Position numbers and translations under genes: made by a program
Assembly (NCBI GenBank): GCA_017430675.1
Contig: JAFRMM010000195.1
Span: 27,519 to 91,518, forward strand
Reading direction: 5' to 3'
Length of the DNA: 64,000 bases
Source: Prevotella sp.
Lineage (GTDB): Bacteria > Bacteroidota > Bacteroidia > Bacteroidales > Bacteroidaceae
Shown: one piece after another, positions 14,033 to 39,595 of the stretch
Layout of the letters: the number at the start of each line of letters is the position of its first letter
Position numbering within the stretch: the first letter of the stretch is position 1
The notes under the pieces: generated by a model
Told to the model about the DNA's origin: nothing
The model's input: the letters and a program-made list of their open reading frames with translations, nothing else
The model's database searches: none

Positions 14033-14092
14033 CAAAATTATAAAAAAAATATGAATTATGCATGATTAATTATGAATTATTTCGTATCTTTG
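14033..14092. promoter_or_regulatory. Divergent promoter repeat, copy A
   Basis: CAAAATTA (14033-14040; TAATTTTG on minus, for aspS), a 44-base AT-rich core containing AATTATGAATTATTT, then TATCTTTG (14085-14092, for the DUF1573 gene). The outer parts are near inverted repeats of each other. The same 60-bp layout recurs at 32074-32133 and 39536-39595. Confidence 0.75.
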
Positions 14093-14121
14093 CCCCAAAA
14101 TTAATTCAAAACGATTCGAAA

Positions 14122-14511
14122 ATGAAAAAACTATTTGTAATAGCCATGATGCTGACGTGCGGATTCGCCGCAGCATTTGCACAGAAACCTGCAGAGATCA
14201 AGTTCGACAAACTGACACACGATTTCGGGACATTCTCTGAGTCAAGCCCTGTTGTAACTTGTGTCTTCACATATACCAATGTGGGTGAACAACCTCTTGT
14301 CATCAATCAGGCGATGGCCTCCTGTGGCTGCACCGTCCCTGAATATACCAAGACACCCGTCCAGCCTGGTGAAAAGGGAGAAATCAAAGTCACCTACAAC
14401 GGCACTGGCAAGTTCCCCGGACATTTCAAGAAGTCCATCACCGTCCGAACCAATGGAGCCGTGGAAATGACGAGGCTCTATATTGAGGGAGACATGACAG
14501 AAGCGAAATAA
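14122..14511 (+). CDS. DUF1573 domain secreted protein
   Basis: A 129-residue exported protein. MKKLFVIAMMLTCGFAAAFAQ is a signal peptide cut after AFA. The rest is an immunoglobulin-like DUF1573 domain: FDFG-type start (KLTHDFGTFSE), FTYTNVGEQPLVI, the conserved SCGCT motif, PVQPGEKGEIKVTY and SITVRTNG. Function is unknown in the family. The frame is open upstream to 14062, but the -7 box at 14085-14092 lies inside that extension, which supports the start at 14122. A strong hairpin follows the stop. Confidence 0.9.
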   Translation: MKKLFVIAMMLTCGFAAAFAQKPAEIKFDKLTHDFGTFSESSPVVTCVFTYTNVGEQPLVINQAMASCGCTVPEYTKTPVQPGEKGEIKVTYNGTGKFPGHFKKSITVRTNGAVEMTRLYIEGDMTEAK

Positions 14512-14513
14512 AT

Positions 14514-14547
14514 AAGAAATCACCAGCCGATTGGCTGGTGATTTCTT
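14514..14547. terminator. Bidirectional intrinsic terminator
   Basis: Perfect 15-bp inverted repeat AAGAAATCACCAGCC / GGCTGGTGATTTCTT with a GATT loop, A-rich on the left and T-rich on the right. It lies between two convergent genes and can serve both. Confidence 0.85.
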
Positions 14548-14550
14548 ATT

Positions 14551-15729
14551 TTAGAACGTATAGGCTAAGCCTAAAGAACTATACTCCTTGAACTGCCAGT
14601 AGCCTAAGTCGTCATCATGGAGGTTGGCATCGTCGAAGCGCGGGAAAAGGAAGAGATTGGCTGTGATATACTTGGACACACGGAGTTCAAAGGTGTTCTC
14701 CCACTCTATCTCTACACGCTTGAAGGACGTAAAGGCAGAGAGGCGGGTCTTCCATGTCACCACGTCATTGAACTTCCACTCCAGATCAGCCGTCATATTA
14801 GGTCCAAACTCCCAAATATGGCGTTTGCCAGGATCCAGACCGTAACTGGGACCTAAGGCCAGTCTGCCCACATAGCGGTAGTTGACAGAAATCGGAGAAA
14901 GGTTGATGGTTCCTGTCAGTTTCTTGTCCTTGGTCTCTACTTTGTAATCCATACCAAGACCAAGGTTCAGGTTGAAGGGAGAGAAGAAGTCTGAATACAC
15001 CACAGGATCATTGGCCTTATAACCCTTCGTGAACTGTGTATAGGCCTGAAGTTGAAGGGTGTAGTACCAGTTCTTGGCTGCCTCAAGACCTAACTTACTC
15101 GTCAGACGGATCAGGTCTTCATTGGATATGAAATTATGGAGTGAGTCGGTACGGGAATTTAAGAATCCGAGTTTCAACTCTAACTTATTATCCCACTTCC
15201 ACTTGTTCTTGTTGTCGTAGTTGGCCTCCAGTGTCAGGGCACCCACCATCGAGTAGTTGCTCTCACCTCCCTTGTACCAGTTGCCTGACACATAGTTCTG
15301 CATGAACTGCAGGAAGCCGTCACCCTTATACGTCCAGAACTTCGGCTTCTGAACCATCAGCGTGTCAGGGATAATCTCAGGCTCATCGAAGACAGGCACA
15401 TCCACCTCCTCGACAAATGCCACCTGGTTCTCAAGGGGCTTATCAACATCTTCACGGATGGAGCCTGTCTCCTGCAATTCTGACTCTGTGGCACAGACCA
15501 GGTCTGGGCGGTTCAGATAGACATTCAGCAGGGCAGCATCCACCTCGTCGGAAACAACATCCTTCCCTGCTGATTCAGAATTCATGGCCAACGTCTTGTC
15601 GGCTACATTGTGATAAAACGTCAAGGGTGCAAACAGACGATAATAACGTCCATCCACACTGTCGTTTGGCTGCGCGGCCTTCGTGCTGAGCACAGAAACT
15701 GCCGCAAAAAATATCATCAGTTTTCTCAT
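14551..15729 (-). CDS. DUF3078 domain outer-membrane-type protein
   Basis: A 392-residue exported protein. MRKLMIFFAAVSVLSTKAAQ is a signal peptide. After a variable region up to about residue 125 comes the DUF3078 region: WTYKGDGFLQFMQNYVSGNWYKGGESNYS, then alternating amphipathic strands (LEANYDNKNKWKWDNKLELK, YYTLQLQAYTQF) to a C-terminal aromatic residue (GLAYTF), consistent with an outer-membrane beta-barrel. The frame is open far upstream to 15975 across yidC sequence, so the ATG at 15729 is chosen. TATCTTTG lies only ten bases before it. Function is unknown. Confidence 0.88.
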   Translation of the reverse strand: MRKLMIFFAAVSVLSTKAAQPNDSVDGRYYRLFAPLTFYHNVADKTLAMNSESAGKDVVSDEVDAALLNVYLNRPDLVCATESELQETGSIREDVDKPLENQVAFVEEVDVPVFDEPEIIPDTLMVQKPKFWTYKGDGFLQFMQNYVSGNWYKGGESNYSMVGALTLEANYDNKNKWKWDNKLELKLGFLNSRTDSLHNFISNEDLIRLTSKLGLEAAKNWYYTLQLQAYTQFTKGYKANDPVVYSDFFSPFNLNLGLGMDYKVETKDKKLTGTINLSPISVNYRYVGRLALGPSYGLDPGKRHIWEFGPNMTADLEWKFNDVVTWKTRLSAFTSFKRVEIEWENTFELRVSKYITANLFLFPRFDDANLHDDDLGYWQFKEYSSLGLAYTF

Positions 15730-15738
15730 AACTGAGTG

Positions 15739-15746
15739 CAAAGATA
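15739..15746 (-). promoter_or_regulatory. -7 promoter element for the DUF3078 gene
   Basis: CAAAGATA on plus, TATCTTTG on minus, ending ten bases before the ATG at 15729. This predicts a transcript with almost no leader. Confidence 0.5.
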
Positions 15747-15789
15747 AGAAAAAATTCTTTCTTTGTGCAGTTATGCCGAAAAAAAGTTG

Positions 15790-15797
15790 TAATTTTG
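15790..15797 (+). promoter_or_regulatory. -7 promoter element for yidC
   Basis: TAATTTTG followed by CA, 48 bases before the yidC ATG. A TTTG at 15762-15765 is 24 bases away, slightly too far for the usual -33 position. Confidence 0.55.
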
Positions 15798-15844
15798 CAC
15801 CTTGATTTATTGTGAACATTAATAAATAAGCAAAATAAACAGAA

Positions 15845-17737
15845 ATGAACAAAGACACAATCATCGGATTCGTCCTCATCGCACTGGTCCTCATCGGATT
15901 CAGTTGGTACAACCAGCCCTCTGCGGAGGAGGTCGAAGCCGCTCGCAAGCAAGACAGCATCGCCGCAGCCATCAAGGATCATGCTGACAAACAGCAGAAA
16001 GCCGAGGAGGCTGCCCGCAAGGCCAAGGCGGAGGCTGCTGCCAAGGGAGACTCGACAGCCTTGTTCTTCTCGGCCCTCAACGGCACTAACGAGACCATCG
16101 TGCTGAAGAACGGGAAGGTGGAACTGTCCTTCAATACGAAGGGCGGCACCATCACCAAGGCCATCATCAAGGACTTTGAGAATGTAGATAACTCCAAGAA
16201 CGAAGTGATGCTCTTCAACGAGAAGACCCAGCAGATGAACTTCATGCTCGCTGCCAAGTCGGAGAACATCATCACCAAAGACCTGTTCTTCACGCCCTCT
16301 AACGTCACTGACTCCACCGTCACCATGACGGCCCAGGCCGGCAACGGGGGAAGTATCGTGTTCAACTACTGGTTAGGCCCCGACTATCTGCTCCATTTCA
16401 CCATGCAGGCCAACGGTCTGAACGGTATGTTTGCCCCCAGTTACAAGGAGATGGACATCGAGTGGACGGACCTTGCCATCCAGCAGGAACGCGGTTTTAC
16501 GTTTGAGAACCGCTACACCTCTGTGACCTATAAGGAAAAAGACAGCGGAACGGACTATCTGAGTGAGACCTCCGAGAAGATCGACGAGAAGATTGAGAAG
16601 CCCCTCGACTGGGTGGCCTTCAAGAATCAGTTCTTCTCTGCAGCCCTGATCTCCAAGGATGACTTCTCTGCCAACGCACTGTTGACGAGCATCCCCCAGC
16701 AGAAGGGCTCTGGTTATCTGAAGCAGTTTAATGCCAAACTCAAGACGGCCTTCGACCCCACAGGTGTCAGGCCTTCAGAGTTTGAGATGTATATCGGTCC
16801 CAACGACTTCCGTCTGATCAAGGACGTGGAGGAGCAGAGCACCTTCGGCAAGGACCTCGACCTGGAGCAACTCGTCTATCTCGGCTGGTGGCTCGTGCGC
16901 TGGATCAACCGTTGGTTCACCATCTACGTCTTCGACTGGCTCACCTCCTGGGGCTTCGGCATGGGTATCGTGCTGATCCTGATCACCCTGTTGCTGAAGG
17001 TCCTTACTTTCCCGATGGTGAAGAAGAGTTATATGTCATCGGCCAAGATGCGCGTGCTGAAGCCGAAACTCGACGAGGCCACCAAACAGTACGACAAGCC
17101 CGAGGACGCGATGAAGAAGCAGCAGGAGATGATGAATCTCTACTCCAAGTACGGCGTGTCACCCCTTGGCGGCTGTCTGCCGATGCTCATCCAGTTCCCC
17201 ATCTGGATGGCCATGTTCTTCTTCGTGCCTAACGCTATCCAGTTGCGCCGCGAGTCGTTCCTCTGGATCGACGACCTCTCGACCTATGATCCCATCATCG
17301 AATGGGGCACGAACATCTGGGGTATTGGCGATCACCTGTCACTGACCTGTATCCTCTTCTGTGTGGCCAACGTGCTCTACTCGTATATGACCATGCGCCA
17401 GCAGAAGGACCAGATGGTGGGTCAGCAGGCTGAACAGATGAAGATGATGCAGTGGATGATGTACCTGATGCCCATCATGTTCTTCTTCATGTTCAACGAC
17501 TACAGTTCAGGTCTGAACTTCTACTACTTCATCTCCCTCTTCTTCTCAGCAGCCATCATGTGGACGCTCCGCAAGACGACCAACGATGCTAAACTCCTCG
17601 CTATCCTTGAGGCGAAGTATCAGGAGAACAAGAATAACCCGACGAAAAAGACCTCTGGTCTCGCTGCCCGTCTCGAAGCCCTGCAGAAGCAGGCTGAGGA
17701 GCAGAAACGCCAGCGCATGAACCAACAAAAGCGATAA
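15845..17737 (+). CDS. yidC: Membrane protein insertase YidC
   Basis: Oxa1/YidC insertase of 630 residues, which inserts membrane proteins with or without SecYEG. An N-terminal membrane anchor (TIIGFVLIALVLIGFSW) is followed by a charged linker, the large periplasmic beta domain (about residues 75-350, VELSFNTKGGTITKAIIKDF and similar), and the conserved five-helix core from about residue 365: GMGIVLILITLLLKVLTFP with KKSYMSSAKM, SPLGGCLPMLIQFPIWMAMF and MYLMPIMFFFMF. The tail is basic and glutamine-rich (KQAEEQKRQRMNQQKR). It heads a run of five genes; the next starts four bases after its stop. Confidence 0.97.
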   Translation: MNKDTIIGFVLIALVLIGFSWYNQPSAEEVEAARKQDSIAAAIKDHADKQQKAEEAARKAKAEAAAKGDSTALFFSALNGTNETIVLKNGKVELSFNTKGGTITKAIIKDFENVDNSKNEVMLFNEKTQQMNFMLAAKSENIITKDLFFTPSNVTDSTVTMTAQAGNGGSIVFNYWLGPDYLLHFTMQANGLNGMFAPSYKEMDIEWTDLAIQQERGFTFENRYTSVTYKEKDSGTDYLSETSEKIDEKIEKPLDWVAFKNQFFSAALISKDDFSANALLTSIPQQKGSGYLKQFNAKLKTAFDPTGVRPSEFEMYIGPNDFRLIKDVEEQSTFGKDLDLEQLVYLGWWLVRWINRWFTIYVFDWLTSWGFGMGIVLILITLLLKVLTFPMVKKSYMSSAKMRVLKPKLDEATKQYDKPEDAMKKQQEMMNLYSKYGVSPLGGCLPMLIQFPIWMAMFFFVPNAIQLRRESFLWIDDLSTYDPIIEWGTNIWGIGDHLSLTCILFCVANVLYSYMTMRQQKDQMVGQQAEQMKMMQWMMYLMPIMFFFMFNDYSSGLNFYYFISLFFSAAIMWTLRKTTNDAKLLAILEAKYQENKNNPTKKTSGLAARLEALQKQAEEQKRQRMNQQKR

Positions 17738-17741
17738 AGAT

Positions 17742-19922
17742 ATGAAAAGAAACAGAATTGTAGTTATCATAGTTGGCCTAGTTCTCCTAGGTTCTCCTAT
17801 CAAAGCCCAAGACGACGTGAAAATAGGCAAGCAGAATATCAAATTGAATAGTGAGTTGATGACCCCAGAGGCGCTCTGGGCGATGGGGCGTATCGGCGCT
17901 GCCGAGGCCAATGCCGATGGCACGCAGATTGTCTATCAGGTGGGCTACTATAGTGTGAAAGCCAACAAGAGCCAGCAGAAGATTGCCGTCATCAATGCCG
18001 ACGGCACCGGCAATACGACTCTGACCACTGGCACGAAGAGCGAGACCGATCCCACCTGGTACAATGGCAAGATCGCCTTCCTCTCTGGCGGACAGATCTG
18101 GACGATGAATGCCGACGGCTCTGACCGTCAGCAGATCTCGAAGACCTCAAAGGATATCGAGGGCTTTAAGTTCTCGCCCGACGGTAAGAAGGTCATCCTC
18201 CTCCACTCCATCGACTTCCACGAAATCATCCAGAAGAATCCCGATGATCTGCCCAAGGCTACTGGCCGTCTGGTGACAGATCTGATGTACCGCCACTGGG
18301 ACCACTATGTGGAGTCGATCCAACACCCCTTCGTGGCAACAATAACCAATAACCAATATCCAATAACCGATGGTATTGACATCCTCGAGGGTGAGCCCTA
18401 CGAGTGTCCGATGGAGCCATTCGGTGGCATGGAGCAGTTAGCCTGGAGTCCTGACTCGAAGACCATCGCCTATACCTGTCGCAAGAAGACGGGCGTGGCC
18501 TATGCCATCTCCACCGATTCCGACATCTATTTATATAATATAGGTACGCGCGAGACGAAGAATCTCTGCAAGCCCGAGGGCTATCAGGAGCCGGAGATCG
18601 ATCCGACCAAGACGATGAAGTACCAAAAGATCAACGCTGCGGAGAACCTGAAGAACAACGTGGGCTACGACCAGAACCCCAAGTTCTCGCCAGACGGTAA
18701 GTATGTCGCCTGGCTCTCGATGGAGCGCAACGGCTATGAGGCCGACCGTAACCGCCTGTGCTGCTACGACTTAGCCACTGGCGAGAAGAAATACCTCACG
18801 GAGTCGTTCGACTCGAATGTTGATGACTTCGTATGGAGCGACTCAAAGGATGCCATGATCTACTTCATCGGTGTCTGGCACGCCACGGAGAATCTCTATG
18901 CCGTGAATTGGAAGGGAGAACTCAAACAACTCACGGAGACGTGGGACGACTTCGGATCGATCCATCTGATGAACAACGGCAAGCAGTTGCTGATGGAGCG
19001 TCACAACTACCTCTCACCGGCTGACCTCTATATCGTCACACCGAACTTCAAGAAACCAGAGAAGACGGCCATCACGCAGTTGACCTTCGAGAACAAACAT
19101 ATCCTCGACCAACTCGCCAAGCCCACCATCCAACAGCGTTGGGTGAAGACCAGCGACGGCAAGGACATGCTCACCTGGATCATCCTGCCGCCGAACTTCG
19201 ACGAAAGCAAGAAATACCCCACCCTACTCTTCTGCGAGGGTGGTCCGCAGAGTCCTGTCAGCCAGTTCTGGAGTTACCGTTGGAACTTCATGATCATGGC
19301 ATCGAACGGCTATGTCATCGTAGCCCCCAACCGTCGTGGTCTGCCCGGTTTCGGACAGGAATGGCTCGAAGAAATCTCCGGCGACTGGACGGGACAGTGC
19401 ATGAAGGACTATCTGGCTGCCATCGACGATGCTGCCAATAACCTGCCCTATGTCGATAAGGACAAACTCGGTGCCGTGGGTGCCAGTTTTGGTGGTTTCT
19501 CCGTCTATTACCTCGCCGGGCATCACGACAAGCGTTTCAAGGCGTTCATCGCCCACGACGGTGCCTTCAATCTCGAGTCGATGTACACGGATACGGAAGA
19601 AGTGTTCTTCTCAAACTGGGAATACGATGACGCCTACTGGAACAAAGACCAGACGGCCAACGCCACCCGTACCTACGAGTATTCGCCGCATAAGTTCGTG
19701 GATCAGTGGGACACCCCGATCCTCTGCATCCACGGCGAGAAGGACTACCGCATCGTGTATAACCAGGGCATGGGTGCCTTCAATGCCGCCCGTCTGCGCG
19801 GCATCCCCGCCGAACTGCTCATCTTCCCTGATGAGAACCACTGGGTATTGAAGCCCCAGAACGGCATCCTCTGGCAGCGCACGTTCTTCAACTGGCTCGA
19901 CCGCTGGCTGAAGACCAATTAA
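17742..19922 (+). CDS. S9 family serine peptidase (prolyl oligopeptidase type)
   Basis: Exported peptidase of 726 residues. A signal peptide (NRIVVIIVGLVLLGSPIKAQ) is followed by a beta-propeller domain (about residues 40-450) with TolB/WD40-like NADGSDR and FSPDGK repeats, then an alpha/beta-hydrolase domain. The catalytic Ser is 582 in GASFGGFS, with Asp668 (HGEKD) and His700 (ENHW). It probably releases di- or tripeptides in the periplasm. An AT-rich repeat at 18341-18370 is translated in frame as ITNNQYPIT near residue 204, in a propeller loop. The gene lies four bases after yidC and 30 before an MFS transporter. Confidence 0.93.
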   Translation: MKRNRIVVIIVGLVLLGSPIKAQDDVKIGKQNIKLNSELMTPEALWAMGRIGAAEANADGTQIVYQVGYYSVKANKSQQKIAVINADGTGNTTLTTGTKSETDPTWYNGKIAFLSGGQIWTMNADGSDRQQISKTSKDIEGFKFSPDGKKVILLHSIDFHEIIQKNPDDLPKATGRLVTDLMYRHWDHYVESIQHPFVATITNNQYPITDGIDILEGEPYECPMEPFGGMEQLAWSPDSKTIAYTCRKKTGVAYAISTDSDIYLYNIGTRETKNLCKPEGYQEPEIDPTKTMKYQKINAAENLKNNVGYDQNPKFSPDGKYVAWLSMERNGYEADRNRLCCYDLATGEKKYLTESFDSNVDDFVWSDSKDAMIYFIGVWHATENLYAVNWKGELKQLTETWDDFGSIHLMNNGKQLLMERHNYLSPADLYIVTPNFKKPEKTAITQLTFENKHILDQLAKPTIQQRWVKTSDGKDMLTWIILPPNFDESKKYPTLLFCEGGPQSPVSQFWSYRWNFMIMASNGYVIVAPNRRGLPGFGQEWLEEISGDWTGQCMKDYLAAIDDAANNLPYVDKDKLGAVGASFGGFSVYYLAGHHDKRFKAFIAHDGAFNLESMYTDTEEVFFSNWEYDDAYWNKDQTANATRTYEYSPHKFVDQWDTPILCIHGEKDYRIVYNQGMGAFNAARLRGIPAELLIFPDENHWVLKPQNGILWQRTFFNWLDRWLKTN
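18341..18370. repeat. AT-rich AATAACC repeat inside the S9 peptidase gene
   Basis: Tandem units of CAATAACC / CAATATCC ending in AACCGAT. The same units occur in opposite orientation at 36254-36291, where they encode the end of guanine deaminase. Both are read as ITNN in the protein. Confidence 0.6.
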
Positions 19923-19949
19923 TAATTGATAATTGAAAATTGATAATCA
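19920..19949. repeat. AATTGATAATTGAAAATTGATAAT intergenic repeat (short AT repeat)
   Basis: Three imperfect units of AATTGA/TAATTGA fill the 30-base gap between the S9 peptidase stop and the MFS start. It resembles the short AT repeats found elsewhere in this window between genes. Confidence 0.45.
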
Positions 19950-19952
19950 GAT

Positions 19953-21575
19953 ATGACACAGACTATTCAAAAGACCCTTCGCGACTCCGCCGGTATGCGG
20001 TGGACCGCATTGCTGCTGCTCGCCTTGGCGATGTTCTGCAGTTACATCTTCATGGATATCCTCTCGCCCATCAAGGACCTGATGCAGGAGACCCGCGGCT
20101 GGGACTCCACCGCCTTCGGTACGATGCAGGGCTCAGAGGTGTTCCTCAACGTGTTCGTGTTCTTCCTCATCTTTGCAGGTATCATCCTCGACAAGATGGG
20201 CGTGCGTTTCACCGCCGTGCTCTCTGCAGCCGTGATGCTCGTCGGTGCCTGTGTGAAATGGTATGCCGTCAGTGAAAGTTTCATGGGAAGCGGACTCGAG
20301 ACATGGTTCACCAATAACCTGAACTATATCCCCATCTTCGATGAACTGGGCGTGTCGCCTTTCTACGAGGGTATGCCCGCATCGGCTAAGTTCGCCGCCT
20401 GTGGCTTCATGATCTTCGGCTGTGGCTGTGAGATGTGTGGTATCACCGTATCAAGAGGTATCGTGAAATGGTTCAAGGGTCGTGAGATGGCCTTGGCCAT
20501 GGGGTCCGAGATGGCACTGGCCCGTCTGGGTGTCGCCACCTGTATGATCTTCTCACCGTTCTTCGCCCGTCTGGGTGGTGAGATCTCCGTCACCCGCAGC
20601 GTCGCCTTCGGTGTGGTACTGATGTGCATCGCCCTCATCATGACCATCGTGTATTTCTTCATGGATCAGAAACTCGACTCGCAGACTGGTGAGGCAGAGG
20701 AGAAAGACGATCCCTTCAAGATCAGCGATATCGGTACGATCCTCAGCGACAGCGGTTTCTGGATTGTCGCCCTGCTCTGTGTGCTCTACTACTCGGCCAT
20801 CTTCCCCTTCCAGAAGTATGCCGTGAACATGCTGCAGTGCAACCTCACGCTGACGGCTCCCGATGCTGATTCGTTCTGGGCCTCATCGAGCGTCACCATC
20901 GTACAGTATATCATCATGCTCATCGTGGCTGCTGCCGGTTTCGCCAGTAACTTCCAGAAGAAGGCCAACCTGAAATACGGTCTGTTAGGGCTCTCCATCG
21001 TCGCACTGATCACCTATTGTTATATGGGTTACATGCGCCAGTCGGCAGAGTCGATCTTCGCCGTGTTCCCATTGCTGGCCGTGCTCATCACCCCGATCCT
21101 CGGCAGTTACCTCGACCATCACGGTAAGGCTGCCTCGATGCTGGTATTAGGTTCACTGTTGCTCATCGGCTGTCACCTGACCTTCGCCTTCGTACTGCCC
21201 GCCTTCAAGGATAGTCCTGTTGGTGGTATCATCATCGCTTACACCACCATCTTAGTGCTCGGTGCCTCGTTCTCACTGGTGCCAGCCTCACTCTGGCCTT
21301 CCGTTCCCAAACTCGTAGATGCCAAGGTGATCGGTTCGGCCTACGCCCTGATCTTCTGGATCCAGAACATCGGCCTGTGGCTGTTCCCGTTGCTCATCGG
21401 TAAGGTGCTCGACGCCACGAACCCCGGTGTGACCGATCCCACGAAGTTCGACTATACGGCTCCGCTGGTGATGCTCGCCTGTCTCGGTGTGGCAGCCCTC
21501 ATCCTCGGTTTCGTACTGAAAGTCGTGGATCGCAAGAAAGGCATTGGCCTTGAACTCCCCAACATCACAGAATAA
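19953..21575 (+). CDS. Major facilitator superfamily transporter (larger paralogue)
   Basis: Inner-membrane transporter of 540 residues with about 12 membrane helices. The first is WTALLLLALAMFCSYIFMD. The A-type MFS motif between helices 2 and 3 is GIILDKMGVRF. A cytoplasmic loop (MDQKLDSQTGEAEEKDDPFK) separates the halves. It is clearly paralogous to the transporter at 23065: same motifs and order, with GCGCEMCGITVSRGIVKWFKGREMALAMG mirrored there. Co-transcription with a peptidase makes peptide or amino-acid transport plausible (some similarity to MFSD1-like carriers), but this is inference. Confidence 0.9.
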   Translation: MTQTIQKTLRDSAGMRWTALLLLALAMFCSYIFMDILSPIKDLMQETRGWDSTAFGTMQGSEVFLNVFVFFLIFAGIILDKMGVRFTAVLSAAVMLVGACVKWYAVSESFMGSGLETWFTNNLNYIPIFDELGVSPFYEGMPASAKFAACGFMIFGCGCEMCGITVSRGIVKWFKGREMALAMGSEMALARLGVATCMIFSPFFARLGGEISVTRSVAFGVVLMCIALIMTIVYFFMDQKLDSQTGEAEEKDDPFKISDIGTILSDSGFWIVALLCVLYYSAIFPFQKYAVNMLQCNLTLTAPDADSFWASSSVTIVQYIIMLIVAAAGFASNFQKKANLKYGLLGLSIVALITYCYMGYMRQSAESIFAVFPLLAVLITPILGSYLDHHGKAASMLVLGSLLLIGCHLTFAFVLPAFKDSPVGGIIIAYTTILVLGASFSLVPASLWPSVPKLVDAKVIGSAYALIFWIQNIGLWLFPLLIGKVLDATNPGVTDPTKFDYTAPLVMLACLGVAALILGFVLKVVDRKKGIGLELPNITE

Positions 21576-21587
21576 TACAAACACAAT

Positions 21588-23051: not shown

Positions 23052-23064
23052 AAAGGTAAAGCAC

Positions 23065-24465: not shown

Positions 24466-24776
24466 TACACTGATACGCAAGAAGTTCGGCTGAAGGGTAA
24501 ATATTGGTGTACTCCGATGGCCTGAGGGAACTGCTTTGGGAGTCTAAAGCATTGACTTTTGCTCCAATTCTCGAGAGAATTCATCCATAAAGAGCCACTT
24601 ATTTTTCCTAAAGAGGCTCCAAATAATTGTCCCAAGCTTTGGGACAAACCCCAAAAAACATACAGCACAAACTTTCCGATACGCAAAAGCCTCAAGAGAG
24701 CCTCAGAAAGACACCCAGGAAAACACCTTTCAGCCGAAGTGCCTGACAATCAGCCGACAAGCTTCTGGCTGAAAGG
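24445..24776. repeat. Intergenic cluster of palindromic units
   Basis: CACCTTTCAGCC occurs at 24445-24456 and 24724-24735. The reverse unit occurs as GGCTGAAGG at 24488-24496 and GGCTGAAAGG at 24767-24776. GATACGCAA occurs twice (near 24472 and 24678). There is also an AATTCTC-GA-GAGAATT hairpin (24566-24581) and TTGTCCCAA-GCT-TTGGGACAA (near 24618-24638). I see no supportable gene here. The region from 24777 to 24992 holds only AT-rich sequence leading into the next promoter. Confidence 0.6.
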
Positions 24777-24992
24777 AAAAAGAAATAAAGATTTCCCTTG
24801 CATATTATGCAAACGTACGACATGATGATCAGCTTTTCGATTTTTCATCAGCATCACATTTATGGTGAACAAAGAACTAATTCGCCTGCAATAATAATCA
24901 AAAGATCACGAACCGCCAAAGAAATTAAGAAATAATTGAAATGGAACAGAAAGATTTTTGTCTCTTTTCGTGGTAAATCTGAAAAGATTTTG

Positions 24993-25000
24993 TATATTTG
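24993..25000 (+). promoter_or_regulatory. -7 promoter element for the candidate RNA
   Basis: TATATTTG followed by CA. It precedes a structured, non-coding stretch that ends in a terminator. The -33 position holds TTTCG rather than TTTG. Confidence 0.6.
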
Positions 25001-25006
25001 CATCGT

Positions 25007-25188: not shown

Positions 25189-25208
25189 TAATTACTAATA
25201 ATGTGAGT

Positions 25209-29863: not shown

Positions 29864-29865
29864 AG

Positions 29866-30648: not shown

Positions 30649-30651
30649 AGG

Positions 30652-32046: not shown

Positions 32047-32073
32047 AATCTCAAAATTTAGCAATTTCGCCTA

Positions 32074-32133
32074 CAAAAGTACAAAATAATTGTGAATTGT
32101 GAATTATGAATTATGAATTATTTACTATCTTTG
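32074..32133. promoter_or_regulatory. Divergent promoter repeat, copy B
   Basis: CAAAAGTA (32074-32081; TACTTTTG on minus, for the LysM operon), a 44-base core with three GAATT(G/A)TGAATT units, then TATCTTTG (32126-32133, for the T9SS cargo gene). Same 52-base offset between -7 boxes as copies A and C. Confidence 0.78.
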
Positions 32134-32152
32134 CACATTAAAGCGAACAAAA

Positions 32153-32842
32153 ATGGAAATAAACAGGTTTTTTCTGACTGCGTTGACAGTATTTCTGTCT
32201 GTTTGGTGTGTGGCACAGGACAACTACCCTTACGTTTCTCCCACAGCCACCTATCTGAATGACGAGGGTGAGGAAACGGTGAGTACTGACAACATTGCAG
32301 GACAGGCTCCACTGACAGTCACCTTCCGCGCCAACCCCCACGACATTGATGGCCATTCGCCATCCTACGAATGGCATTTCCGCATGGAGGGAGAAAGCAA
32401 GGAAATGGCAGTACGCTACGAGGAAGACACGGAATATACCTTCACCATGGCAGGAACAACCCGCGTGACTCTTTTTTTCAGACCCGATGCAGGCGAGGAG
32501 GCCATCGACTCTACCGTGTTCATGGTAACGGTCAGTGAGAGTAAACTGGTCTTCCCCAATGCCTTCTCACCCAATGGTGACCAGATTAACGACGTGTTCA
32601 AGGCCAAGGAATACCAGAGCATTGTCGAGTTTCATGCATATATCTTCAACCGCTGGGGACAGAAAATTTATGACTGGACGGATCCTACTGGAGGTTGGGA
32701 CGGTACCTACAGTGGCAAGGACGTGAAGGAAGGAGTCTATTTCCTGCTCTGTAAGGCCAAGGGAGCAGATGGCAGAGAATACAACATCAAGAAAGACGTA
32801 AACCTATTAAGAGGTTACATAGAGACCACGTCAGACAACTAA
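32153..32842 (+). CDS. Secreted protein with PKD-like and CHU_C (type IX secretion) domains
   Basis: A 229-residue exported protein. The signal peptide ([20 protein letters not shown]) is followed by an Ig/PKD-like domain (about residues 45-135: [27 protein letters not shown]). The C-terminal gliding-motility domain is a match to type B T9SS sorting domains: [57 protein letters not shown]. It should cross the outer membrane through the type IX system. It shares its promoter region with the PorT/LysM operon and lies two bases before uvrA, so uvrA is probably co-transcribed. Confidence 0.88.
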
Positions 32843-32844
32843 GC

Positions 32845-35664
32845 ATGAAGACAGACGACAAGATCAATGTTTTTGGTGCGCGCGTACATAATCTTAAAAA
32901 TATAGACGTCGAGATACCACGCCACTCTCTGACGGTCATCACTGGCCTCAGTGGAAGTGGCAAGTCATCATTGGCCTTCGATACCATCTTTGCCGAAGGA
33001 CAGCGCCGCTATATCGAAACCTTCTCTGCTTACGCCCGTAATTTCCTCGGTGGCATGGAGCGGCCAGATGTGGATAAGATCACAGGTCTCTCCCCTGTTA
33101 TCAGCATCGAACAAAAGACCACTAATAAGAACCCACGTTCCACCGTTGGCACCACGACGGAAGTCTATGACTATATGCGTCTGCTCTTTGCCCGTGCAGG
33201 ACGTGCCTACAGTTATGCCACAGGCGAGGAAATGGTGAAATATACGGAGGAGAAGGTGCTCGACATGATCCTCCACGACTATGCGGACAAAAAAATCTTC
33301 ATCCTCGCCCCACTCGTCCGAAGCCGCAAGGGTCACTACCGCGAACTCTTCGAGTCGATGCGCCGGAAGGGCTACCTGAATATCCGTGTCGATGGTCAGT
33401 TGATGGAGATCACCCGTGGCATGAAGGTAGATCGTTACAAGAACCACGACATTGAGGTGGTCATCGACAAATTGGCTGTCAGCGATAAGGACACAGACCG
33501 TCTGAAGAAGTCGGTCTCCATCGCCATGAAGCAGGGCGATGGCCTCATCATGATTCTGGATAAGGACTCTGGCGACATCAAACATTTCTCCAAGCGACTG
33601 ATGTGTCCTACGACGGGCATCAGTTACTCAGACCCTGCGCCCAACAACTTCTCCTTCAACTCTCCCCAGGGGGCCTGTCCCCATTGCAAGGGATTAGGTG
33701 TCATCAACCAGATAGACCTCACGAAAGTCATCCCAGACCGCAAGCAGAATATCCACGACGGCGGTATCGTGCCTCTCGGCAAGTACAAGAACCAGATGAT
33801 CTTCTGGCAGATTGATGCCATCCTCAAGAAATACGAGTGCGACGTGAATACGCCCATCGAGGAGATCCCTGAGGAAGCGCTCCGCGAGGTACTCTACGGC
33901 TCGCTGGAGAATGTGCGCATCGACAAGGAACTCGTGCATACCTCCAGCGACTATTTCATCGCCTTCGACGGTATCATCAAATACCTGCGCAACGTGATGG
34001 ACAACGACGACTCCGCCGCGGGCCAGAAATGGGCAGACCAGTTCCTGGCAGAGCGCGAGTGTCCCGAGTGTCACGGTCAGCGACTGAACCGCGAGGCCCT
34101 CTCGTATAAGATATGGGACAAGAACATCGCCGAACTCGCCTCGATGGATATCTCCGAACTGCGCGAATGGCTCGATGAGGTGGAAGAACACCTTGACCAC
34201 CAGCAACAGCAGATCGCCCACGAGATCCTGAAGGAGATCCGTACTCGTCTGGACTTCCTGCTCGAAGTGGGACTGGACTATCTCGCCCTCAACCGTCAGT
34301 CTGCCTCGCTCTCAGGCGGTGAGAGCCAGCGCATCCGCCTCGCCACACAGATAGGCTCGCAACTCGTCAATGTGCTCTATATCCTCGATGAGCCCAGCAT
34401 CGGTCTCCACCAGCGCGACAATGAACGCCTCATCCATTCCCTGAAGGCCCTGCGAGACCTGGGCAACACCGTCATCGTTGTGGAGCATGACCAGGATATG
34501 ATGCTCAATGCCGACTATATCGTCGATATTGGTCCCCGTGCAGGACGGAAAGGCGGCGAAGTGGTCTTCCAGGGCACACCCGAGGAGATGCTCAAGACGG
34601 AGACTATCACCGCCCAGTACCTCAACGGCCAACAGCAGATCGCCATTCCAGAAAAGCGTCGTAAGGGAAATGGCCAGAGCCTCATCTTGAAAGGTTGCAC
34701 GGGCAACAACCTCAAGCATGTCGATGTGGAGTTTCCCCTCGGCAAACTCATCCTCGTCACGGGTGTCAGCGGCTCAGGCAAATCAACGCTCATCAACGAG
34801 ACCCTGCAGCCCATCCTCTCCCGGCATTTCTACCGTTCCCTGAAAATTCCCATGCCCTACGACAGTATCGAGGGTCTGGAATATATAGATAAGGTGGTCG
34901 ATGTGGATCAGAGCCCCATTGGTCGTACGCCACGCTCTAATCCTGCCACCTATACAGGCGTCTTCTCCGATATCCGCAGTCTGTTCGTGAATCTCCCTGA
35001 GGCCAAGATCCGCGGCTATAAGCCCGGGCGCTTCTCCTTTAACGTGAAGGGTGGCCGCTGTGAGGCCTGTGGCGGCAATGGCTACAAGACCATCGAGATG
35101 AACTTCCTGCCTGATATCCAAGTGCCCTGTGAGGAGTGTCACGGCAAGCGCTATAACCGTGAGACGCTCGAAGTACGTTATAAGGGTAAGTCGATTGCCG
35201 ATGTGCTCGACATGACCATCAATCAGGCCGTGGAGTTCTTCGAGAACGTGCCCGATATCCTCCGTAAGATCAAGACCATCCAGGACGTGGGTCTGGGCTA
35301 TATCAAATTGGGGCAGCCCTCCACTACCCTGTCAGGCGGTGAGAGCCAGCGCGTGAAACTCGCCACCGAACTCTCAAAGAAAGACACGGGCAAGACACTC
35401 TATATCCTCGACGAGCCCACGACGGGTCTGCACTTCGAAGATATCCGCATCCTGATGGACGTGCTCCAGAAACTCGTGGACAGAGGCAATACCGTCATCA
35501 TTATCGAGCACAACCTCGACGTCGTCAAACTGGCCGACTGGATCATTGACATGGGACCCGAGGGAGGTCGCAAGGGCGGACAAGTTCTCTCTACTGGCAC
35601 CCCCGAACAAATTGCCAAGTCCAAGAAGGGCTATACGCCCCAGTTTATTCGGAAGTTTTTCTGA
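32845..35664 (+). CDS. uvrA: UvrABC system protein A
   Basis: DNA damage recognition ATPase of nucleotide excision repair, 939 residues, full length. It has two ABC modules. The first Walker A is [12 protein letters not shown] near residue 31; the second is [12 protein letters not shown] near residue 640. Signatures [12 protein letters not shown] and [12 protein letters not shown] and two ILDEP Walker B motifs are present. Zinc-finger cysteines appear in [16 protein letters not shown] and CEACGGNG...CEECHGKR. Its start is two bases after the stop of the secreted protein and it converges with xpt, nine bases away. Confidence 0.97.
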
Positions 35665-35673
35665 AACAGCAAA

Positions 35674-36252
35674 CTACTCTTTCAGTTTGATCTCGTTATT
35701 CTCCAGCGACTCGATGATGGCGAGCGACTCAATGCGCCTGACACCCTCAGCCATCAGCACCTCGCGCCCGTGCTGGAATGCCTTCTCGATGATGAAGCCC
35801 ATGCCCTCGATGGTGGCTCCTGCCTGACGGCACAGGTCAAGGATCCCCATGCCCGCATTGCCGAAGGCGAGGAAATCATCCACGAAGAGCACATGATCCT
35901 CAGCCGTCAGGTATTCCTTACTGATCACCATCGTATAGTCACGGTGCTTGGTAAACGAGGTGACGGTCGAGACGTACATATCGTCCATCGTCGAAGGCTT
36001 TTTCTTCTTGGCAAACACCACGGGCAGTTCCATCAGATAGCCCAGCATGATGGCGGGGGCAATACCCGAGGCCTCGACCGTCAGGATCTTGTTGATAGGT
36101 ACATCGGCAAAGCGGCGGATCAGTTCGATGGCCACCTGCTTCATCAGGTAAGGATCCATCTGGTGGTTGATGAAGCGATCCACCTTGAGGATACCCCCTT
36201 CGTAGCATCGTCCGTCCTTCAGAATACGGTCACGTAAAGGTTTCAGTGTCAT
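35674..36252 (-). CDS. xpt: Xanthine phosphoribosyltransferase
   Basis: Type I phosphoribosyltransferase of 192 residues that makes XMP from xanthine and PRPP in the cytoplasm. The start [20 protein letters not shown] and the segments [19 protein letters not shown] and FAKKKKPST are characteristic of Xpt. The PRPP-binding motif is [13 protein letters not shown] near residue 128. It follows guanine deaminase by 16 bases in the same operon, so the pair would convert guanine to xanthine and then XMP. Confidence 0.93.
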
Positions 36253-36253
36253 A

Positions 36254-36291
36254 ACTATCGTTTATTGTTTATCGGTTATTGGTTATTGGTT
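36254..36291. repeat. AT-rich GGTTATT repeat at the end of guanine deaminase
   Basis: Tandem units of TTATTGGTTATTGG with TTTATTG/TTTATCG. On the minus strand the units encode the last residues of GuaD (EPITNNR-stop) and fill the gap before xpt. Related to 18341-18370. Confidence 0.55.
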
Positions 36292-37549
36292 CACTGATCT
36301 CTTCTCCTCTGCAGAAGCGGTGCACGATCTGACGGTCGTCGCCTAAATAGATGAATCGCTCCAGACGGTGCAGCAGCGAGTAGTCCGAGTGATTCAGGTC
36401 ACGGTCGTCAATGACCAACGCGTCGAATTCATAGCCTGGTTCGAAACTGCCCACCTTGCCGAAGAAACTGCCCGCCGACTTCGTAGCCAGCCAAAAGACC
36501 TCCGACAGTGTCAGGAACGGTTTGTCGTGGTTCTGCTGGTAGTGCATCTTGCTCACCTGGATGGCGAACACCATCATGCGGAAGATGTTCAGGTCGTGTC
36601 CTCCGCTGATGTCACTGCCCAGTCCCACGGGGATGCCCTCTTCGAGAAAGGTGCGGATGGGCGCCAAGCCAGAGGCTAAGTTCAGGTTCGACGTGGGACA
36701 GTGGGCCACCATCACGCCATTGCGTTTCATCAGTTCCAGTTCCTCCCCGGCCGTCCACACACAGTGGGCCATGATCGTGGGTGTCTGTCCGAAGAGTCCA
36801 TAGCGGTTATAGGCATCGCCATAACTGGTGCTCTCCTGTTCCAGATTCCTCACCCATTCTATCTCAGAGACATTCTCCGAGAGGTGCGACTGCACGGGCA
36901 ACTGGTACTTAGCCGCCAGATCGCCACAGGCCTGCAGCATCTCTGGCGTACACGACGGCACGAATCGCGGGGTGATAATCGGGCGTACCAAGGCATCAGG
37001 CTCATTGAACTCAGCAATCAGCGCCTCGTTGCCTTTCATCATCTCCTCCACTGTCTCCGAGAGTTCGGGAGGACAGTTGCGGTCCATGGCCACCTTACCC
37101 ACCATCGCACCCATGCCAGCCTTCTGGAAGAGTTGCATCAGTCGTCGCGTGCTGTCGGTATGGATGGTCGCGAACACACAGGCACGCATCGTGCCGAAGC
37201 GCCACAGGTCGCGGACAAACAGGCGGTACATCCGCTCGGCGTAGGCCGTATCCGCATATTTCTTCTCTTCAGGGAAGGTGTAGTTCTGCAACCACGGCAG
37301 CAGTTCCAGATCCATCGCGATACCCTGGTTACGGTACTGGGGAGCGTGGACGTGCATATCATTCATGGCGGGGATCAGCAGACGGTCGCCGAAATCCACA
37401 ATCTCATCCCCCTCGCAGCCCAACGACTGAAGGTCCGCAGCAACACCCGCCACGCAACCATCCTCCACGGCGATATAGCCGTTCTCCAACACCTCGAAGC
37501 CCGTCCGCTCCTTGGTATAAAGAATATGTGCCTTATAGACTTTTTTCAT
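36269..37549 (-). CDS. guaD: Guanine deaminase
   Basis: Amidohydrolase-superfamily enzyme of 426 residues that deaminates guanine to xanthine and ammonia. Metal ligands are visible in MHVHAPQYRNQG (HxH), the QSHLSENVSEI segment (His), MAHCVWTAGEEL (His) and GSDISGGHDL (Asp). The N-terminal domain starts KKVYKAHILYTKERTGFEVL. The frame is open upstream to 37690 through repeat sequence; the ATG at 37549, 27 bases after the -7 box, is chosen. The last few codons come from an AT-rich repeat. It is first of two genes with xpt. Confidence 0.93.
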   Translation of the reverse strand: MKKVYKAHILYTKERTGFEVLENGYIAVEDGCVAGVAADLQSLGCEGDEIVDFGDRLLIPAMNDMHVHAPQYRNQGIAMDLELLPWLQNYTFPEEKKYADTAYAERMYRLFVRDLWRFGTMRACVFATIHTDSTRRLMQLFQKAGMGAMVGKVAMDRNCPPELSETVEEMMKGNEALIAEFNEPDALVRPIITPRFVPSCTPEMLQACGDLAAKYQLPVQSHLSENVSEIEWVRNLEQESTSYGDAYNRYGLFGQTPTIMAHCVWTAGEELELMKRNGVMVAHCPTSNLNLASGLAPIRTFLEEGIPVGLGSDISGGHDLNIFRMMVFAIQVSKMHYQQNHDKPFLTLSEVFWLATKSAGSFFGKVGSFEPGYEFDALVIDDRDLNHSDYSLLHRLERFIYLGDDRQIVHRFCRGEEISEPITNNR

Positions 37550-37575
37550 CTTTCTCCGCTTATCTGTTCTGACTG

Positions 37576-37606
37576 CAAAGATAGTTTTTTTTTCAAATCT
37601 TACAAA
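37576..37606 (-). promoter_or_regulatory. Promoter for guaD-xpt
   Basis: Minus strand: TTTG (plus CAAA 37603-37606), 19 bases, TATCTTTG (plus CAAAGATA 37576-37583). No guanine/xanthine riboswitch is visible in the short leader. Confidence 0.75.
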
Positions 37607-37645
37607 GTTTTTCTCTGTCTTTTTGTTGGTATTTGTTCTCTTCCC

Positions 37646-37708
37646 CAACACAGGGTGACACAACACAGGGTGACAGGCACGTTGCAACACAGGGTGACAG
37701 GCACGTTG
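37646..37708. repeat. Tandem 24-bp repeat
   Basis: Two exact 24-bp copies (37661-37684, 37685-37708) and a preceding 15-bp partial copy (37646-37660). Each unit begins CAACACAGGGTGACA and ends GGCACGTTG, so CAAC and GTTG form inverted ends. The unit looks like a REP-type sequence. It lies upstream of the guaD promoter. Confidence 0.75.
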
Positions 37709-37795
37709 TGAGGTGCGCTAAAGAATCAAAACGGCAGAGAGATCTTAGTCGAAAAACAGGAAGTTTTCATGTTGTGGGCATAAAATAATAATGCA

Positions 37796-38175
37796 AAACT
37801 GCGCCGTCATAGCCGTTATTTGTATAACTTGCTGATTTTCAATAAGTAAACGACGGCTATGTAGGTCTGAAACCGCGCCGCAACCCCGCCGATACCCCGC
37901 CGTCATAATTAATAGGAACAGGAGGGACTATCCCCTTCCGCTGAGGTGCCACTATCCTTCGCTATAGTGCCACTGCTTGGATGAATTCTCGAGAGAATTT
38001 AACCGTAGGGTGGCACCGTAGCATCGTAAGGCACTACTTATTTCAGCAAAATAAGTAGTATTGACGGGCGGCGAGGTTGCGGCTATGTTGCGGCGCGGTT
38101 TTAGGCCTACATAGCCGTCGTTTACTTATTGAAAATCAGCAAGTTATACAAATAACGGCTAGGACGGCGCGGTTT
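37796..38175. mobile_element. 380-bp element with 89-bp inverted repeats (MITE-like)
   Basis: Left arm 37796-37884 and right arm 38087-38175 are each 89 bp and match as inverted copies with about four mismatches. Both include ACTTGCTGATTTTCAATAAG and end in GCGCCGCAAC / GTTGCGGCGC. The 202-bp centre has more palindromes: an AATTCTC-GA-GAGAATT hairpin at 37984-37999 and ACTACTTATTT...AAATAAGTAGT near 38033-38059. It carries no gene. The right arm runs past the stop codon of the ABC permease. No target-site duplication was recognised. Confidence 0.65.
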
Positions 38176-38923
38176 CATTTAATTTTGTAAAATTTCTGTC
38201 TGCCAGAAAGAGCGTAACAGCCAAGGACAGGACGGAGGCTGAGACGCAGCCTACCACCATGCCCAGCATCAGGAGGAAGGCATGGAGGGGAGAAATGCCC
38301 CCAAGGAGGATACCCACGAGCAACAGGGGCATCGACGTAAGACCCAAGACAGAGAGATTAGCCACGGTGGGGGAAATGACGGCCAACAGACTGCGACGGA
38401 GGAAAGGCAGGAGGGCCTTGAAATGAGCCAGACCATTGCCACGCAGGAACTCATACTGCTGTTCGTCAGCCTTCAGGGCAGAGAGATAGGTGCTCAGACC
38501 ACGGATCATCATCGCTGTGGCATGGCCCATGAGCAGGGCCGTCACAGGCACGAACCAATGGGCATCGAAGATACGCACAGGGAATACGAGTGCCATGAGC
38601 CAGAAACTGACCAGCGACACGCCTATGAACAACCCTGCACTGGCAGACAGCATCATCTTCTTGACATCCAGTTTACAGCGCTTCACCACGAGCCAACCTG
38701 AGTAGGCGGCGATCGCCACAAGCCACAGGAGCAGGAGCCAAGGGCTATCGACACGGATCAGTGCCCACACCACGAGACAGAGCAGAGCCAACTGCACTAT
38801 CGCGCGCCCTACGGCGATGCCAAACGTCCTGAGCATGGGGCGCTCCAACCAATACAGCAGTCCTGCGGGTATCACCAGCAGGAGCAATCCTAATAAGGTA
38901 TGTAATATCAGTCCTGTGTTCAT
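38159..38923 (-). CDS. FetB/UPF0014 family ABC transporter permease
   Basis: Inner-membrane permease of 254 residues with about seven helices (ILHTLLGLLLLVIPAGLLYW, AIVQLALLCLVVWALI and others). Family segments are AVGRAIVQLALL, ALLMGHATAMMIRGLSTYLS and PLLLVGILLGGISPLHAFLL. E. coli FetB is part of an iron-efflux ABC transporter; here function is inferred. The last five codons and stop (ETAPS-TAG) lie inside the right arm of the 380-bp repeat, so the natural C-terminus may have been altered. It overlaps the ATPase gene by four bases. Confidence 0.85.
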   Translation of the reverse strand: MNTGLILHTLLGLLLLVIPAGLLYWLERPMLRTFGIAVGRAIVQLALLCLVVWALIRVDSPWLLLLWLVAIAAYSGWLVVKRCKLDVKKMMLSASAGLFIGVSLVSFWLMALVFPVRIFDAHWFVPVTALLMGHATAMMIRGLSTYLSALKADEQQYEFLRGNGLAHFKALLPFLRRSLLAVISPTVANLSVLGLTSMPLLLVGILLGGISPLHAFLLMLGMVVGCVSASVLSLAVTLFLADRNFTKLNETAPS

Positions 38924-39522
38924 TGTCTGAATGTGTCTAAGTTCAATACCAGGTCAGCACGCCCCAGCAACTGGGGCTTACGGGTGGCGATCAGGACGGT
39001 CTTGCCTGTCTCCTTCTGCTGGCGCAGCAGATCATACATCCGTTCCGTCAGTTCCGGGGTCAGATAGGCGGCAGGTTCGTCTGCAATCACGATGGGTTTG
39101 TCAGGAGCCTCACGGATGGTCTTCTCAGCCAGTTGCAGGATGGCCTCAGGTGCAAGGGGCTCAGGCTGCTGTTCTGCTACGGCAGAGGGAAGCGTGGCAT
39201 TCCACACGCCATACTCATCGGCCTCACAGACAGGGGCCTCAGGGGCCTTCAGTTGATGGGCTAACATCTGTATCTCCTGGGGCAGATAGACCATCAGACG
39301 ACGGAAGGCATGGGCGGAATCGATCGTCAGCAGTTCGCCATCGACGCTCACGAACCCTGCCTCCACTGGCAAGAGCCCCATCAGCGTGCGCAGAAAGGTC
39401 GTCTTCCCAGAGCCTTCCGACCCTGTGATACAGGTTATCTGCCCGTCTTTCGCGATGAGCGAAAGTCCCTTGACGAGCGTTTTCCCTCCGATGGAGATGG
39501 TGGCATCCTTGACCTCTAACAT
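38920..39522 (-). CDS. ABC transporter ATP-binding protein (FetA-like), atypical signature
   Basis: ATPase partner of the permease, 200 residues. Walker A is GSEGSGKTTF near residue 34, a Q-loop appears as YLPQEIQ, Walker B is IVIADEPAAY. The ABC signature (LSGGQ) expected between them is absent; that stretch reads AVAEQQPEPLAPEAILQLAE. The switch histidine after Walker B is also missing (LIATRKPQ instead of a T-H-D type motif). Either the pair works by a modified cycle, or ATP hydrolysis is weak. Promoter is the left half of repeat copy C. Confidence 0.8.
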   Translation of the reverse strand: MLEVKDATISIGGKTLVKGLSLIAKDGQITCITGSEGSGKTTFLRTLMGLLPVEAGFVSVDGELLTIDSAHAFRRLMVYLPQEIQMLAHQLKAPEAPVCEADEYGVWNATLPSAVAEQQPEPLAPEAILQLAEKTIREAPDKPIVIADEPAAYLTPELTERMYDLLRQQKETGKTVLIATRKPQLLGRADLVLNLDTFRQ

Positions 39523-39535
39523 CTACTTTTTGCCG

Positions 39536-39595
39536 CAAAGTTAGAAAATAATTATGAATTGTGAATTATGAATTATGAATTATTTTGTACCTTTG
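39536..39595. promoter_or_regulatory. Divergent promoter repeat, copy C
   Basis: CAAAGTTA (39536-39543; TAACTTTG on minus, for the ABC exporter), 44-base core of GAATT(G/A)TGAATT units, then TACCTTTG (39588-39595, for the agmatine operon). Nearly identical in sequence to copy B. Confidence 0.78.

Follow-up and report, generated by a model that had tools for sequence, protein, structure and literature searches.

The stretch of Prevotella sp. DNA analysed here (assembly GCA_017430675.1, contig JAFRMM010000195.1, positions 27,519 to 91,518; 64,000 nucleotides, referred to below as the window) includes three 60-bp modules, each located between divergent genes and bounded by putative outward-facing -7 promoter boxes. 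The first module separates aspS from a DUF1573 gene (the aspS/DUF1573 site), the second separates the gene for a LysM protein from that for a CHU_C protein with a type IX secretion system (T9SS) signal (the LysM/CHU_C site), and the third lies between an ABC ATPase gene and one for a PAD_porph protein of the agmatine deiminase type (the ABC/agmatine site). These Pfam assignments agree with a first-pass annotation of the window, in which the flanking genes were described as unrelated, and the modules occupy exactly the positions given there, with 52 bp between the box starts in 3 of 3 copies.

The boxes conform to TAnnTTTG, which has 48 matches in the window where 27.8 are expected. According to the available text of one study, sigma-ABfr promoters of the Bacteroidota combine this -7 element with TTTG near -33 [PMC7366714]. 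The modules resemble that class in the -7 box and the A/T-rich spacer, and differ from it in the missing -33 TTTG/TTG element, as none of the six module promoters has a TTG starting from -28 to -4 relative to the TA. Of 151 single promoters, 28% have a TTG beginning at -23 and 13% one beginning at -22. The core of every module is a 7-bp tandem array of TGAATTA-type units, detected with Tandem Repeats Finder (TRF). A window search for TGAATTATGAATT that allowed up to 2 mismatches gave 15 matches compared with 2.76 expected, a number reached in none of 100 shuffles. The three cores are A/T rich throughout with a G or C every 7 bp. A conserved core and inverted ends had both been reported for the set. 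TGAATTA/TGAATTG arrays are indeed present in the second and third copies, and the inverted ends AAATAATT/AATTATTT are likewise found in 2 of the 3, but the array of the first copy is degenerate and its left end AAATAATT is missing. Inverted -7 boxes are what is expected of any divergent pair. We put at roughly 70% the probability that two ancestral divergent promoters of sigma-ABfr type form each module and that a heptanucleotide array fills the upstream DNA they share.

The sites were compared at the species level with those of relatives G001 to G008, which were reached via their aspS loci. Among the best 80 of 590 loci, aspS identity to the window is 96% in L001 and L048, 95% in L002 and 93% in L003, which places the window in a rumen Prevotella-type genome. 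Synteny is kept at all three sites in G001, G002 and G003. Loci with the divergent neighbour numbered 21 for aspS/DUF1573 and 22 for ABC/agmatine, and the other loci scanned, which lacked the neighbour or ended too soon, were not counted. The ABC/agmatine count includes G005 and G008, where the ABC neighbour is only ∼30% identical and synteny is loose. At this site the two boxes are separated by 30 (3 loci), 50 (2), 51 (5), 52 (5), 54, 71, 72 (2), 83, 113 or 114 bp, and the units between them are TGAATTA, GTGAAAA, AAACTCT, GAATTAA, GAACTAT, or none. G002 has TGAATTA units at a spacing of 51 and G001 has AATTCTT-like units at 50. Both boxes are also present 30 bp apart, with no array, in G003 and G004, where the spacers are identical and were counted once, and in L260. 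The array-less spacing of G003/G004 differs by 21 bp from that of G002, which has the array, and by 22 from the 52 of the window. The spacer common to L139 and L140 (G003 C23 and G004 C29) is found in two genomes whose aspS genes differ (95% and 93% identity to the window), and may reflect a recent transfer or a misplaced contig.

Different cores are also seen at the other two sites. The LysM/CHU_C site has TCAATTA units at exactly 52 in G001, a TGAATTA and TTCACTA composite at 83 in G003, and both boxes 21 bp apart with no array in G007. The aspS/DUF1573 spacer measures 103 bp in L001 and L048 and carries TTCACTT-type units. Box letters at the three sites track the site more than the array.

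To the first-pass annotation, the 60-bp modules looked like copies of one mobile or amplified element equipped with two outward promoters. Several features would fit such an element, including the same 52-bp geometry with related cores at unrelated genes, the 29 distinct TGAATTA modules detected in the fetched relatives, an irregular unit common to three G002 loci and one G003 locus, and an association between array orientation and right box type. However, at each of the three sites some relatives have both -7 boxes with a different array or none, and the array-less sites of G003, G004 and L260 (ABC/agmatine) and of G007 (LysM/CHU_C) are not empty sites of a promoter-carrying element or miniature inverted-repeat transposable element, as both boxes are retained. 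Box letters that follow the site, and unrelated divergent pairs in the same spacing class (see below), also argue against it. A mobile promoter-carrying element was thus rejected and is considered very unlikely; the three look-alike modules are probably not jumping promoter cassettes. It had been proposed that finding only these three copies, with the same neighbours conserved in relatives, would count against mobility. The closest relatives do conserve the neighbours, but the copies number far more than three. Ancestral boxes with arrays that turn over between them provide the simplest account, given the relatives with other units or no array that have both boxes at the orthologous places.

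A further argument for mobility, that independent promoters would not share their spacing, does not hold, as in this clade the distance between divergent -7 boxes follows whole helical turns, with five turns (50 to 52 bp) as the commonest class. Strict divergent pairs were defined as GCAAANNTA ... TANNTTTGC and drawn from the window and from stretches of eight genomes. The 68 pairs that contain no repeat cluster near 20, 31, 51, 72, 82, 103, 114, 125, 135 and 150 bp, with R 0.67 and a Rayleigh z of 30.7 at a period of 10.5 bp, while z is between 0 and 3.3 at 7, 8, 9 and 12. Tandem pairs gave z 0.8 (n=23). Thirty pairs from aspS loci gave z 11.6 at 10.5, and the G002 pairs at spacings of 41 to 71, repeats included, gave z 30.6 for the 49 of 69 pairs listed, among which none falls at 43-48, 54-58 or 63-67. 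That G002 listing also covers rows of five other genomes, with 2 of 9 for G257 and one row omitted (G243, distance 55). Seventy-five pairs from seven other genomes of the family (rows from 7 of 61 genomes, with 12 of the 23 pairs of G010) gave z 17.2 at 10.5, and P was 0.005 to 0.25 in single genomes. These sets overlap, as the G002 listing shares pairs with the 68-pair survey and the 30 aspS-locus pairs include the aspS site. Any match for divergent pairs was found in 25 of 41 genomes of the phylum, G002 included. Repeat-bearing pairs are spaced at 44, 52, 62, 81, 95, 103 and 104, and the 52 of the three modules corresponds to 5.09 turns. On sequence evidence, divergent -7 boxes in the clade tend to lie whole helical turns apart, at about n × 10.5 - 1.4 bp, most often with n = 5. 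Searches of an open-access library for papers on divergent promoters with helical phasing or on upstream A-tracts in Bacteroides gave no description of such a phase lock. One 52-bp divergent spacer in L113 (17201-17260; G002 C1) is an almost perfect palindrome around GTCAATCG...CGATTGAC.

The window itself contains further divergent pairs (Table 1). Two of them, 7506/7556 and 15739/15790, belong to the 50-51 distance class and have cores unrelated to those of the modules. The shared distance of 52 is thus not, on its own, a signature of copying, because these pairs at 50 and 51 have unrelated cores. Common descent as the sole cause of the spacing was rejected on the same grounds. When pairs in the window are defined loosely, 10 of 11 are within 0.2 turn of an integer, including five in the 5-turn class, two of these with no repeat. 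The only off-phase pair (12 bp) has a right box that is also used by another pair, and the pair 60976/61008 is located outside any gap between divergent open reading frames (ORFs).

Table 1. Positions in the window of the -7 boxes and arrays of the three modules and of the divergent pairs used for comparison.
Feature	Position	Strand	Evidence or occurrence in relatives
-7 box toward aspS, TAATTTTG	14033..14040	-	Orthologous -7 box present in L001, L048 and others lacking a TGAATTA-type repeat
Degenerate 7-bp array in divergent spacer, units TGAATTA / TGCATGA / TTAATTA	14050..14080	+	TRF; TTCACTT-type units in orthologs L001, L048
-7 box toward DUF1573 gene, TATCTTTG	14085..14092	+	TATCTTTG also in L001, L048
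-7 box toward LysM operon, TACTTTTG	32074..32081	-	Box identical in G001, G002, G003, G006, G007
7-bp array, TGAATTA/TGAATTG units	32088..32121	+	TRF; other cores at the LysM/CHU_C site in G001, G003, G007
-7 box toward CHU_C (T9SS signal) gene, TATCTTTG	32126..32133	+	TATCTTTG also in G002 and in array-less G007
-7 box toward ABC ATPase / UPF0014 genes, TAACTTTG	39536..39543	-	Sequence match
7-bp array, TGAATTA/TGAATTG units	39550..39583	+	TRF; varied units or no array at the orthologous site in relatives
-7 box toward agmatine deiminase operon, TACCTTTG	39588..39595	+	TACCTTTG also in array-less G003, G004, spacing 30
Divergent -7 pair, spacing 50, no repeat	7506..7563 (boxes 7506/7556)
Divergent -7 pair, spacing 51, no repeat	15739..15797 (boxes 15739/15790)
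Divergent -7 pair, spacing 103 (10 turns)	2140..2250
Divergent -7 pair, spacing 81 (8 turns)	57142..57230
Divergent -7 pair, spacing 71 (7 turns)	63661..63739

The orthologous spacers were assessed with the period (10.5) and offset (-1.4) fixed beforehand from the survey of divergent pairs. With the three sites pooled, the deviation from a whole number of turns stays within 0.2 turn in 42 of 46 distinct spacers, and in 27 of 30 when the 5-turn class is left aside. The individual sites have 17 of 20 (aspS/DUF1573), 5 of 5 (LysM/CHU_C) and 20 of 21 (ABC/agmatine) in phase, and the in-phase spacers occupy 2, 3, 5, 7, 8, 9, 10, 11, 12 and 16 turns. The pool leaves out the LysM/CHU_C site of G006 (∼900 nt between the boxes), one of the two identical G003/G004 spacers and the duplicate aspS locus L209. 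Where two candidate boxes were present, the one flanked by G or C was chosen; other choices at L002 and L015 would bring the aspS site to 18 of 20. Thus, as read from the sequences, most changes in spacing between orthologous sites are of whole turns. Descent alone does not explain a phase that is kept across sites differing by several turns.

Phasing is also detected upstream of single promoters. Measured from the TA of the box, the A+T fraction of 163 such promoters peaks near -6, -15, -28, -38, -48, -58, -69, -79 and -90. Coherence at 10.5 bp in the close set (134 promoters) reaches z 74 in the interval -44..-2, 31 in -86..-44 and 7.4 in -128..-86, compared with z ∼1 for 4160 random intergenic points. 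In three successive windows, the corresponding values are 18.8, 9.1 and 3.5 for L002-L025, 10.6, 7.7 and 3.7 for G029, 5.7, 5.1 and 1.8 for G157, and 13.7, 3.0 and 1.2 for L026-L080. After repeat-bearing promoters are dropped (151 left), the signal is made up of A-tract 4-mers and AAA, with TTT nearer the box; GC dinucleotides are in antiphase and TpA steps are unphased. CAAA is below 6% at every position in these 151 promoters. The single-promoter signal is that of phased A-tracts, with a 10.5-bp period that extends to about -100.

Seven-bp arrays are in clear excess in these genomes, with 50 in the window and 400 kb of G002 compared with 0.7 in block shuffles, and with units arranged head to tail. 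In 24 of the 50 a -7 box lies no more than 25 nt from an array end. With up to 1 mismatch, TGAATTATGAATTATTT has matches in 5 of 8 relatives (18, 7, 4, 3 and 5) and none in the other three, and its backward control has 0 in 8 of 8. Favourite units differ from genome to genome. Densities are biased, as stretches were taken from contigs named by earlier matches (G002, G003, G008, 6 of 10 G157 stretches and the G055 contigs). A restriction of arrays to promoters was ruled out, since 29 of 52 in G002, 14 of 16 in G003, 29 of 30 in G157 and 14 of 14 in G055 have no box beside them. On the most likely reading, the repeats are heptanucleotide arrays gained and lost within a spacer whose length is held in helical phase.

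A regulator or nucleoid protein is unlikely to use the units as binding sites in tandem. Arrays touch a -7 box in 23 of 52 cases in G002 against 9 of 52 A/T-matched control places, and in 5 of 11 against 1 of 11 in G029, and the AATTATG class supplies 5 of the 6 G002 arrays lying between two boxes, as would be expected of such sites. However, no enrichment at boxes was seen in G003 (2 of 16, controls 4 of 16), G157 (1 of 30, controls 6 of 30) or G055 (0 of 14, controls 2 of 14), and units vary between species at one site. A slippage switch, in which gain or loss of a unit would shift the promoters by 7 bp, or two thirds of a turn, and turn expression up or down by phase variation, is given almost no weight. 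Tandem arrays can slip, a change of one unit breaks the helical phase, and one repeat-bearing pair, at 44, is off phase, but all 29 TGAATTA modules are at 50-52 in a search that allowed only 49-54, and aspS is among the flanking genes.

Copying of the repeat core by recombination or gene conversion, with the promoters left in place, is a possibility that we hold tentatively, and part of the exact 52 would then reflect common descent of the cores. The 29 distinct TGAATTA-type divergent modules in the fetched sequence, from the same limited search, are at 52 (21), 51 (6) and 50 (2), while 21 listed pairs at 50 or 51 lack such arrays. The irregular sequence ATTATGCATTATGAATTATGAATTATTTCGTATCTTTG, with a TGCATTA unit in the same register, recurs at three G002 loci (C91, C140 and C146) and at one in G003 (C9), which may be an ortholog of one of them. 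Such irregular copies common to several loci suggest that cores are sometimes copied between loci, and the favourite units of each genome are in keeping with this. The earlier description of the modules as amplified thus has support for the repeat core, but not for the promoters. Conversely, different units at one site across species leave the turn number unchanged, the TCAATTA core of G001 at LysM/CHU_C also gives exactly 52, and no donor-recipient pair was traced.

The helical lock between ancestral boxes could be accounted for if the phased A/T segments work on a single helix face, either recognised by a nucleoid protein or by RNA polymerase, with its alpha C-terminal domains placed along an extended UP-like track, or acting through the curvature of the DNA. 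In E. coli, the alpha C-terminal domains can bind in helical steps as far upstream as about -90. Back-to-back promoters would share one track, and a half-turn offset would place the A/T segments of one promoter on the wrong face for the other; at five turns, the A/T spacer segment of each promoter would coincide with the -38 segment of the other. Arrays would arise in, or be copied into, A/T-rich spacers, and those of 7 bp would be tolerated because three units gained or lost (21 bp, two turns) leave the phase as it was, with selection removing most other lengths and survivors being mostly of in-phase length. A promoter of the Prevotella type of Bacteroidaceae may then be a one-faced track of phased A-tracts of ∼100 bp, not a 35-bp site. 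Divergent genes would share the track, their promoters would be mechanically coupled with a spacing that evolves in whole turns, and the 7-bp repeats would act as gauge blocks gained or lost in threes. We consider this wider proposal plausible at rather less than even odds.

A number of observations weigh against the interpretation of the modules as phased ancestral promoters. The -7 boxes were called solely by match to the published consensus. Four of the 46 orthologous spacers are off phase (54, 106, 201 and 379), and the rows share ancestry, so that P is too small and the binomial value of 4e-13 overstates independence. Taking the nearest right box regardless of context lowers the ABC/agmatine site from 20 of 21 to 17 of 21, and alternative boxes at L008 (107), L021 (120) and the G002 LysM site (75) are off phase. 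Convergent pairs gave z 4.1 at 10.5 (n=13), and the one repeat-bearing pair at 44, in G002, is off phase. The period is poorly resolved in the 41-71 range, where z at 10.0 is 35.0 (G002) and 19.4 (seven genomes), higher than at 10.5, and no lock was seen in 26 pairs from four more distant Bacteroidota. Single promoters of G055 are weakly phased (z 2.5, 1.1 and 2.4). The close set also gave z 20.4 at period 7 in -44..-2, and 7.0 at 9 and 16.9 at 12 in -86..-44, which is partly leakage from the 42-bp windows and the repeats. Boxes inside mechanically called ORFs also show phasing, with z 14.0 and 5.1 for the close set and z 6.0 and 8.7 for L026-L080, where the 8.7 exceeds the 3.0 of single promoters; many of these ORFs may be false. 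CAAA has power at 10.5 bp in the single set (8.1, 1.9 and 4.5), so weak hidden partners are possible. Arrays with a G or C every 7 bp do not follow a 10.5-bp track internally. Lastly, 24 of 29 TGAATTA modules have TATCTTTG or TACCTTTG as their right-facing box, against 27 of 86 boxes of non-repeat pairs, a bias somewhat in favour of copying with the right box included.

Other repeats were observed in the course of the analysis. Window positions 18340-18365, 19917-19947 and 36256-36291 hold 7-bp arrays of CAATAAC, AATTGAT and TTATTGG, within or at the ends of ORFs and distant from -7 boxes, and tandem copies of CAACACAGGGTGACA / CAACACAGGGTGACAGGCACGTTG at 37646-37708 overlap the start of the minus-strand ORF 36269-37690. 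Several G002 loci (L129 12935-12964, L119 12557-12588, L113 19863-19892) have a one-sided promoter repeat with a GCAGCAAAT-like left end, about four TTCACTN units and a -7 box. Arrays of TTCANNN x4 are patchy, occurring in 64 of 151 genomes of the family with 0 to 248 overlapping matches, and their presence might follow that of a gene for making or tolerating them. TTCANNN was considered as a family-wide motif, but its backward control also has matches in several genomes, and it serves here only to show this patchiness. Tandem arrays of unrelated 22-bp units are plentiful in L160, L162 and L164 (G008), L207-L208 (G110) and L170-L177 (G157); they are densest in the G110 and G008 stretches, with none above threshold in the window.

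Heptanucleotide arrays are known from other prokaryotes. TAACTGA arrays are described in Beggiatoaceae, Cyanobacteria and five Bacteroidetes, and GGGAATC and GGGGA(T/C)T arrays in Xanthomonas and Nostoc, respectively [PMC4679880, PMC4692102]. In the available sections of these reports, they share with the present arrays the period of 7, a mostly intergenic location, genome-specific units and a sporadic distribution. The G-rich heptanucleotide repeats are reported there to be under-represented between divergent genes [PMC4692102], whereas in some genomes examined here arrays abut -7 boxes and sit inside divergent spacers. Several units are found per genome, and they vary between species at one site. 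Bidirectional promoters of E. coli likewise place two promoters back to back on shared DNA, but their start sites, in the portion of the report available, are mostly 18 bp apart, also 10 or 23 [PMC12825309], while the boxes here do not overlap and are at least 2 turns apart, mostly 5 or more. An A-tract period of 10-11 bp is shared with the curved DNA known upstream of bacterial promoters, and curved DNA is often associated with promoters, according to the accessible part of one account [PMC3940949]; the difference here lies in a register tied to the -7 box out to about -100 and in a lock on divergent spacing, with most changes being of whole turns. The available sections of the sigma-ABfr study make no mention of phased divergent pairs [PMC7366714].

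The modules are predicted divergent promoters with a known kind of repeat, and the helical lock and the phased A-tract tracks are the unexpected part. Identical geometry in a repeated module does not have to mean that the copies are mobile. If whole-turn evolution of spacing is true, the geometry of ∼100 bp of upstream DNA would be under selection in a major gut clade, and would provide a sequence-only aid for locating promoters and divergent units in that clade.

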